From the NCBI RefSeq assembly GCF_001293165.1, contig NZ_CP010552.1, positions 558,001-622,000 on the forward strand: 64,000 nt of DNA, read 5' to 3'. This DNA is from Candidatus Thioglobus autotrophicus (GTDB lineage Bacteria > Pseudomonadota > Gammaproteobacteria > PS1 > Pseudothioglobaceae). Below, piece by piece: positions 2,934 through 39,494 of this stretch (position 1 is its first letter; every line of letters begins with the position of its first letter). The position numbers and the translations under genes were made by a program. Under the pieces are notes generated by a model that saw nothing but the letters and a program-made list of their open reading frames with translations, was not told where the DNA came from and ran no database searches.

Positions 2934-3067
2934 GAAACTACGTTAAAATACACGTGCTGGTAAAGTATACAGCTGCTATTTATATTGTTTGACTGATGTT
3001 CTCATCTTTTCTAAGTTATAAATGTGGTCTATTTTTTCGGTATTTTTTTAAACTTATAGGAGACATC

Positions 3068-3271
3068 ATGTCTACAACAGGAAAGGTAAAGTGGTTTGAC
3101 GCTAAAAAAGGTTTTGGTTTTATTGAGCAAGAAAGTGGTGACGATGTATTCGTTCACTTCCGTGCAATCCAAGGCGACGGTTACAAATCTTTAGAAGAAG
3201 GTCAAGAAGTAGAATTTGACTTAGAAGATGGTGCTAAAGGTCCTCAAGCGGCTAACGTACATCCTCAGTAG
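3068..3271 (+). CDS. cold-shock domain protein (CspA family)
   Basis: A 67-residue single cold-shock domain, the normal length for CspA relatives. The RNP1 motif KGFGFI and RNP2 motif VFVHF, which bind single-stranded RNA and DNA, are both present. The start at 3068 follows the Shine-Dalgarno TAGGAG (3057-3062) and matches the family N terminus [10 protein letters not shown]; an upstream in-frame start at 2996 would add 24 residues unlike the family. The 165 bases between deaD and this gene leave room for a long 5' leader of the kind that regulates cspA in cold. The gene ends in a strong terminator. Confidence 0.95.
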
Positions 3272-3294
3272 TTTTTCACTAAACTATTGAAACT

Positions 3295-3324
3295 AAAAAA
3301 CCCAGCATAAACGCTGGGTTTTTT
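3295..3324 (+). terminator. intrinsic terminator after the cold-shock gene
   Basis: An A-rich stem, AAAAAACCCAGC, pairs with GCTGGGTTTTTT around a six-base loop and ends in a T run. The A run on the other side means it could also act on the minus strand. It lies just before sbcB. Confidence 0.9.
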
Positions 3325-3340
3325 ATTGCCAAAAATTCGT

Positions 3341-29208: not shown

Positions 29209-30216
29209 TTAATCAACGATATTAATATCGACACCCTTTTCTAACAACTCGGCCTGTCTAGCGCGCAGATAAGTGCTAAATTTTGGATAATACTGATAAT
29301 GCTTACCACGGACATACTTCAACACCGTATTAAAATGAAAGCTATAGAGCTTGCCATCAATTTTGGTGATATTTTCACCCTCATCAAACAGCAAAATACC
29401 CGGGCGATAATTTAAATCATAATCTTTAACCATTTGCCTTGGTGAGGTGAGCTTGCCGTCAAAGCCTATAATTTTCTGGTCCGAGTAAGCATCAAAACGC
29501 ACAAACAAATATTTATCCAGCTCAGCTTTAACATCTGCTCGATTAATCAAATTTTGATGAAAATCTTCGCACGCTGTACAGTCTTTATCTTCAAATAGTA
29601 TCGCCACTGGCTGATCAAACTCTTGGAAATTAGACGCCACTTGCAAGCTCGCATGATCAATAAAAGTATAGGCTTGGCTGGCATTTTGCTGGGCTTCGAT
29701 ATAATTTGATAACGTCGTATTTTTGTAAGATTTACTAGCCACATATTCTAGCACTTGCCTAAAAGCGGCAACATCACGATAGCCATTTGTTCTAAAGGCT
29801 TGCTTGCCACTCTCATCTAAAAAAAATAATGGTTGGCGTATATTTTACCGCCAGCATTTCGCTGAGTGCTTGCTCAGTTTTGCTTTCAGATTCACTCATG
29901 GTAATTTCTCTCGACCCCCTGATATTCACCGCAACGACAGAAAAATGTTTTTTAATAAAAGCTAAATTTTCACCACTTTTAAAATTTTGCGTCAGCATGG
30001 CGTCGCAATATGGGCAACCGTCTAAATGAAAATACAATAAAACCGTTTTGTTTTCATCAAGTGCATCCTGTGCATCTTCAGCCACATCCAAAAAACTATC
30101 GGTAAACCAGCTAGGCACATCGTAAAGCGCACCCCCAACAACCTTGCCTGAATCAGCATAAGTATTGATAAAAAAAATGCAATAACCAATATAAAAATTC
30201 GACGCATTAATACCAT
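29209..30216 (-). pseudogene. periplasmic two-domain thioredoxin (SoxW-like) broken by two frameshifts
   Basis: Three reading frames together make one protein. The first piece (from 30216, AAGG ribosome site) is a signal peptide, MRRIFILVIAFF. After a run of eight T (minus strand, 30170-30177) the frame must change to continue with a YADSGKVVGG cleavage region and a thioredoxin domain with CPYC. After a second run of eight T (29819-29826) it must change again, giving TPTIIF then LDESGK, and a second thioredoxin-like domain with CTAC. One extra T at the first run and one fewer T at the second restore a single protein of about 335 residues. It resembles COG2143 (SoxW-type) thioredoxins. Either a recent pseudogene, homopolymer sequencing errors, or slippage. 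Confidence 0.75.
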
Positions 30217-30328: not shown

Positions 30329-30333
30329 AATGA

Positions 30334-30512
30334 TTGTCTGTTGTGTTTGTGACTGGCTACGTCCCCTGAGCCGATAAATAAACAACTAAGGATATGAGAT
30401 AGGCTGCTATTGTGCAAGCCCACCACGTAGTGGGAAGCCTGCGGTAGACTTCGAATTTCCGCCTTGAACCTTACTGGTTCAGGTTTTATGCCATCACGGC
30501 ACAACGGATTTT
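30334..30512 (+). ncRNA. ssrS: 6S RNA
   Basis: The conserved block GTCCCCTGAGCCGATA (30361-30376) is a 6S RNA hallmark. The ends pair: GTTGTG (30340-30345) with CACAAC (30500-30505), then GTGA and TGG with their partners. A CCTTGAACC/GGTTCAGG hairpin at 30462-30483 matches the E. coli arm. The length is about 180 nt and the 5-formyltetrahydrofolate cyclo-ligase gene follows directly, the classical ssrS-ygfA arrangement. 6S RNA binds sigma70 RNA polymerase as a mimic of an open promoter and damps transcription in stationary phase. The exact ends are estimated. A short open frame on the opposite strand here is spurious. Confidence 0.93.
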
Positions 30513-30524
30513 AACTTCTTCGGC

Positions 30525-30536: not shown

Positions 30537-31088
30537 ATGAAAGCACTACGCCAACTCCTTCGACAAAAAAGACTCGACATCAACCCTTCCGATCGTGTCA
30601 AATTTGCCAAACAGTTATTATCTCAATTACAAAAAATAGCAAATTTTGAGAATGACCAAAAAGTTGCTCTTTATTTACCTAATAACGGTGAAATTAACCC
30701 AAAATACATTGAAAACTTCCTAAAAAATCAAGGAATTAGCACTTATTTGCCTATATTAGACGACAAAAGTCTTAATTTTGCAAAAATTGGGGAAAATTTC
30801 AGAAAAAACCGATTTGGCATTAAAGAGCCAATTTCTACTGATATTATTAACGCAGATCAGCTCGATATTCTATTTATGCCATTAGTAGGCTTTGATAAAG
30901 ATAAAAATCGCATTGGCATGGGTGGTGGCTTTTACGATCGCACACTAGCCTTTAAAAAACAGCAAAAAATGGCTAAAAATCCCAAGCTTATTGGGTTAGC
31001 TTTTGATTGTCAACAAGTCGAGCAGTTAGAAGTACAAGAATGGGACGTTCCACTCGATGTGATTATTACACCCAGTCAAATTCTTTAA
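30537..31088 (+). CDS. fthC: 5-formyltetrahydrofolate cyclo-ligase
   Basis: A 183-residue enzyme (YgfA/MTHFS family) converting 5-formyl-THF to 5,10-methenyl-THF. It begins ALRQLLRQKR, has the substrate-binding FMPLVGFDKDKNRIGMGGGFYDRTL segment, and ends IGLAFDCQQVEQLEVQEWDVPLDVIITP, all family hallmarks. The 6S RNA gene lies just upstream. Its end overlaps the convergent ubiH-family gene by four bases. Confidence 0.95.
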   Translation: MKALRQLLRQKRLDINPSDRVKFAKQLLSQLQKIANFENDQKVALYLPNNGEINPKYIENFLKNQGISTYLPILDDKSLNFAKIGENFRKNRFGIKEPISTDIINADQLDILFMPLVGFDKDKNRIGMGGGFYDRTLAFKKQQKMAKNPKLIGLAFDCQQVEQLEVQEWDVPLDVIITPSQIL

Positions 31089-38773: not shown

Positions 38774-39494
38774 TAGACTCGCCTAAATAGACTTTTTTAA
38801 CTTCTGAATTATCAAGAATAGCTTGTTTATCGCCCCTGGCAATAATATTCCCACCATGTAAAACATAGGAGTGATCACAAGTATCAAGCATTTCTCGATA
38901 ATTATGATCTGTAATTAACACGCCAATACCTTTATCCTTTAAATGGTAAATAATTTGCTGAATATCGCCCACAGAAATTGGGTCCACCCCTGCAAATGGC
39001 TCATCTAGTAGGACAAATTTTGGATCCATTGCTAGCGCTCTAGCAATCTCAACTCGACGCCTTTCTCCACCTGAAAGACTCAGGCCGTCAATATGACGAA
39101 TATGTTCAATATGAAATTCAGATAACAACTCTTCTAGACGATGCTTTCTTTGCGGCTTATCTAAGGCACTATTTAATTCCAAAACAGCCAAAATATTATC
39201 CTCAACTGACAGCTTTCGAAAAATTGAAGGCTCTTGTGGTAAATATCCTAAGCCCAATTTAGAGCGTTTATGCATAGGCATTTTGCTCACCTTAACCCCG
39301 TCAATAAAGACTTGGCCTTTATCTGCCCGAACCAAGCCACATGCAATATAAAAACAGGTCGTTTTACCAGCGCCATTAGGACCTAACAAGCCCACAATTT
39401 CACCGGACTTAACCTCAAACGAGACGTCGGAAACCACTTCACGTCGGGCGTATTTTTTAGAGATATGGGTAACAGTGAGTGTGCTTGATGACAT
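38760..39494 (-). CDS. lptB: LPS export ABC transporter ATPase LptB
   Basis: A 244-residue ATPase. Walker A is GPNGAGKTT, the Q-loop [16 protein letters not shown] is characteristic of LptB, the signature is [15 protein letters not shown], Walker B is [13 protein letters not shown], and the H-loop is ITDHNYRE. With LptFG it drives lipopolysaccharide transport to the outer membrane. lptA, lptC and rpoN, its usual neighbours, are not adjacent; instead it leads tsaD-comM-hisA-rnfH. Confidence 0.95.

Follow-up and report, generated by a model that had tools for sequence, protein, structure and literature searches.

Two single-base frame changes at runs of eight T in a conserved thioredoxin-like gene of the Candidatus Thioglobus autotrophicus EF1 reference genome

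A conserved, putatively exported thiol-disulfide (thioredoxin-fold) gene is spread over three reading frames in the reference genome of Candidatus Thioglobus autotrophicus EF1, and both frame changes are single-base shifts, in opposite directions, at runs of eight T. The gene lies on the minus strand of the window, a stretch of 64,000 bases (558001-622000) of the single 1,512,449-base contig of this strain. The best explanation, to which we would give about an even chance, is that two real and recent slippage mutations at these sense-strand poly-T runs broke the gene in this strain, with errors in the assembly as a close second. Neat as it is, the locus is most likely ordinary rather than a novel type of system.

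Inspection of the sequence and its open reading frames resolved one two-domain protein in three pieces. The first (30022-30216) comprises the ATG at 30216 and a hydrophobic N-terminus, whose signal peptide and cleavage site were assessed by eye, and its frame runs into an in-frame stop at 30022. The first T8 run (30170-30177) marks the change to the second frame, which contains the CPYC thioredoxin-like domain (29813-30118) and whose similarity to relatives extends up to 30169. The second T8 run (29819-29826) marks the return to the frame of the first piece (30216 minus 29826 is 390), and the third piece (29209-29838), open from 29838, holds the CTAC thioredoxin-like domain and the stop codon at 29209-29211. 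The three frames, the switches at both runs and the common frame of the first and last pieces had been described in an earlier note on this DNA and were borne out here. The same note called the gene SoxW-like, a label that found no support, as no SoxW-named model appeared among the NCBIfam or Pfam matches, and none of the neighbours is a sox gene, going by a reading of their ORFs.

The Pfam model Thioredoxin_2 (PF13098, cut-off 27) matched the CPYC piece with 50.3 bits (E 3.3e-13) and the CTAC piece with 32.2 bits (E 1.4e-7), so that two tandem matches lie above the cut-off; likewise, two stretches of the orthologue L034 were matched, and in that genome both thioredoxin-like domains occupy a single frame of 335 aa. 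The signal-peptide piece gave no Thioredoxin_2 match, its sole Pfam match being PrgI with an E-value of 0.31. The tandem Thioredoxin_2 periplasmic proteins of the SUP05 clade family show the same two domains, CPYC plus CxxC, in the same order, but are encoded in one frame whereas the EF1 gene uses three. Among solved structures the best match was 4fyb, named DsbC, to the first domain (E 1.3e-17). A predicted structure of L034 was discarded on account of its mean pLDDT of 38, no relative turned up among viral contigs, and a promoter and terminator scan yielded nothing that was used in the interpretation.

A search with the third piece over 95 genomes, EF1 included, gave matches in 51 of them. 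The ten loci from other genomes that were closest to the EF1 gene (L005-L014) served as orthologues, their start codons being picked by length. The earlier note had proposed looking for an intact gene in close relatives, and the frame is open through the whole gene in all ten. Identity to relatives was 68-88% for the second piece, except for 56% with the read-through query L039, and 67-83% for the third piece against the nine closest relatives, the value for G008 being 83% over residues 4-209. At the second run each of the ten orthologues lacks one of the EF1 bases in the alignment, and the run in L006 is T7. The first run falls in the fast-changing signal peptide, where the aligned orthologues stay in frame and L011 has T7. 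Provided that the assembly is correct at both runs, a gene interrupted in EF1 and intact in its orthologues has the form of a pseudogene.

According to the favoured explanation, replication slippage at A/T runs would have altered the length of the T runs within the gene, and such slips would go uncorrected because the lineage lacks MutS and MutL. The models PF00488 (MutS) and PF01119 (MutL) matched none of the 83 genomes of the family, 49 of which are at least 90% complete, while both matched in 11 of 14 control genomes. A search at the level of the order covered the same number of genomes with the same result, and in a broader set MutS was found in five of seven genomes of the same class outside the family. 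Once the first slip had silenced the gene, the second would have been neutral, which could explain why this gene has two lesions and the rest of the compared sample none; in a dead gene, lesions are expected to gather in this way. Its double breakage was, however, the reason for selecting the locus, and this weakens the argument drawn from that coincidence.

The loss of such genes is tolerated, since homologues are frame-broken (G012) or decayed to remnants (G029, G045, G057) in relatives of another genus, copies that lie at another locus and are thus homologues, not proven orthologues, and since three genomes of the same genus (G003, G005 and G010, 95-99% complete) contain only a paralogue class of roughly 30% identity. 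In the single-contig family genome G012 the homologue (L092, 2951-3879) switches frame between residues 75 and 87, and this break is not at a long homopolymer.

Substitution patterns were compared with the pieces taken separately and no base altered. Between EF1 and its two nearest relatives dN was 0.06-0.14 and dS 0.97 or more, much as among the relatives themselves. At otherwise invariant columns EF1 carried a single unique change in each piece compared, out of 44 such columns for the first and 65 for the second, a count within the range of the other relatives and no higher than in most. Hence, the relaxed selection typical of a pseudogene was not found in either conserved piece, dN/dS being low and unique changes not in excess, as is expected if the pseudogene is very young. 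Since the coding signal is preserved, the breakage is either young or unreal, and selection acted on the gene until very recently, or does so still. If the lesions are present in the DNA of the cells, as we infer, they should be recent and the gene non-functional or nearly so.

The same absence of decay beyond the two slips fits the leading alternative, namely two sequencing or consensus errors left in the assembly of a gene that cells carry intact, which we consider somewhat less probable than real mutation. Error is conceivable because the EF1 assembly relied on SMRT (PacBio) reads only, assembled with HGAP at 106x, with no other reads named and no Illumina polishing stated (PMC4616170). Both single-base changes fall at the longest homopolymers of the window, which contains five runs of exactly eight and none longer. 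EF1 also has more genes without protein than the hybrid assemblies of EF2 and EF3 (CP137632, CP137633), strains with 97.8% ANI to EF1: the published figures give 1,637 genes against 1,506 KEGG protein-coding genes for EF1, that is 131 without protein, compared with 50 for EF2 and 46 for EF3 (PMC10927645), although sources and annotation versions differ. These 131 genes could reflect more frame errors in EF1.

Nevertheless, the assembly looks clean in the EF1 sequence that was sampled. Its 382,675 bases include 89 runs of eight or more, and in addition to the two considered here 34 such runs lie well inside uninterrupted ORFs (290 ORFs of at least 150 aa), a count that speaks against error, although, being based on ORFs, it can register no run outside them. 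Loci where a run comes close to an ORF end or falls in a short ORF (L048, L051, L053, L054, L057, L061, L069, L070 and L078) were examined as well; Pfam assigned separate known families or a domain to L048, L051, L057, L061 and the upstream ORF of L053, the rest were judged by eye, and no further split gene came to light in the 40 sampled EF1 stretches. Neither was another split gene found among 155,864 EF1 bases matched to proteins of relatives, a comparison that drew on stretches of G014 and contigs of the orthologue genomes. This census covers conserved genes and would therefore miss breaks in poorly conserved ones; its listing omitted splits with known orthologue loci, in one pass also outside the window, whereas the comparisons that listed all such splits in the window returned only this gene and, in one of them, a case at 39487. 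The latter involves no frame break, for it is where an upstream gene, read through in the query, comes to its end. Two other apparent splits were set aside, that of L138 as a spurious antisense ORF over another gene, and those of L142 as repeated partial transposase-like copies, as read from the match pattern only. With no other split gene in the compared bases, two errors in one gene would be a coincidence, and the opposite directions of the two changes also speak against error. On balance, the absence of MutS and MutL, the decay that such genes show in related genomes and the lack of another split gene were counted in favour of real lesions, and the lack of further decay, the PacBio-only assembly and the surplus of protein-less genes against them.

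The earlier note had listed error, early pseudogene and phase variation side by side, a list that was right but left the choice open, and of which phase variation can now be disfavoured. A conserved tract would be expected of a phase-variable gene, and T8 occurred at neither site in any of the ten orthologues; for want of such conservation both phase variation and programmed recoding lose ground. It is unlikely, though slightly less so than these two, that in this family of marine sulfur oxidisers, its free-living members among them, which has existed without MutS and MutL, unrepaired slippage at A/T runs makes genes like this periplasmic thioredoxin flicker off and on, while polymerase slippage on sense-strand poly-T maintains a trickle of full-length product in cells whose gene is nominally broken. 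Phase variation proper, in which a population harbours T runs of varying length that turn the gene on or off, appears improbable. Slippage at runs should indeed be raised in the absence of MutS and MutL, and the DNA sequenced originated from 62 cultures (PMC4616170), but a switch built on two runs, each of which has to be correct, would be a poor one, and no other ORF in the 382,675 bases held two of the 34 runs. Long T runs in coding sequence are also rare, with only 6 T runs against 28 A runs on the sense strand among these 34, as if they were avoided. In 5000 codon shuffles of the gene itself, runs of T8 or longer averaged 0.29, and two or more appeared in 3.1%.

Very improbable, finally, is the restoration of the protein at useful levels by recoding or RNA polymerase slippage. 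Read from the ATG, the first run gives U UUU UUA in phase, which we take to be a -1 slippery heptamer, and a -1 step there enters the second frame, but any T8 contains such a heptamer in every phase. The second site requires the opposite shift, the sites are not conserved, the relatives need no recoding, and a stimulatory structure was absent after the first site (fold z 0.47) and weak after the second (z -1.28). Slippage of E. coli RNA polymerase on poly(T7/8) gave 5% and 10% of in-frame expression, with a bias for T, in the available portion of one study (PMC6260861), while a genome-wide survey that included Buchnera saw, in its accessible part, no frame restored by transcription errors (PMC5574713). 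Some full-length product from polymerase slippage at the T8 runs is possible, but little is to be expected, since slippage would have to occur at both sites and in opposite directions.

To return to real slippage mutations, the preferred explanation has known parallels. In Blochmannia, homopolymer frameshifts are found in an AT-rich reduced genome. The same holds for Buchnera, for which the part of the survey available describes genes that are otherwise conserved but changed by a single base at an A/T run (PMC5574713), the situation seen here. In contrast to these symbionts, EF1 is a free-living isolate with a genome of the 39% GC class, and it carries two lesions in one gene and no other in the compared sample. 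Stocks of Helicobacter pylori SS1/PMSS1, too, differ by genes disrupted at A/T homopolymer tracts, as far as the accessible text of that report goes, and one of these disruptions was itself suspected to be a sequencing error (PMC5358919), whereas the comparison here uses one consensus sequence of EF1, and its tracts are not conserved.

Taken alone, the locus is a single gene, broken or mis-called, of a reference genome. This genome served as a proteomics database, according to the part of the source at hand (PMC6509183), and therefore the thioredoxin-like protein may have entered searches in fragments only, or may have been missing from them. Of more interest is a by-product of the analysis, the family-wide absence of MutS and MutL, which makes homopolymer instability in the clade testable. 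For a sponge symbiont and for two symbionts of clams, the available section of one report describes loss of MutL-MutS as belonging to genome reduction (PMC5361782); our literature search listed one paper for mutS and mismatch repair in SUP05, and none for mutS, or for pseudogenes and frameshifts, in Thioglobus. The absence is not confined to symbionts, since it includes the free-living isolate EF1, and its occurrence in 83 of 83 family genomes suggests that mismatch repair was lost before symbiosis.

Some minor observations concern the surroundings of the gene. Its divergent neighbour is a 6S RNA on the plus strand (30332-30514; Rfam RF00013, 100.5 bits), which separates the broken gene from the adjoining ORF (30537-31088), taken by eye for a 5-formyltetrahydrofolate cyclo-ligase. 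Among 15 loci given to Rfam, the 6S RNA adjoins the gene at six, namely the orthologues in this neighbourhood, and the other nine, more distant homologues or remnants, have no adjacent 6S RNA. In G006 the ORF by the 6S RNA (L046, 7737-9130) matches twice, with a partial copy (residues 135-182) and a full one, which looks like a partial duplication. Elsewhere in the window, positions 2983-3326 match the cspA thermoregulator family (RF01766) with 106.9 bits.
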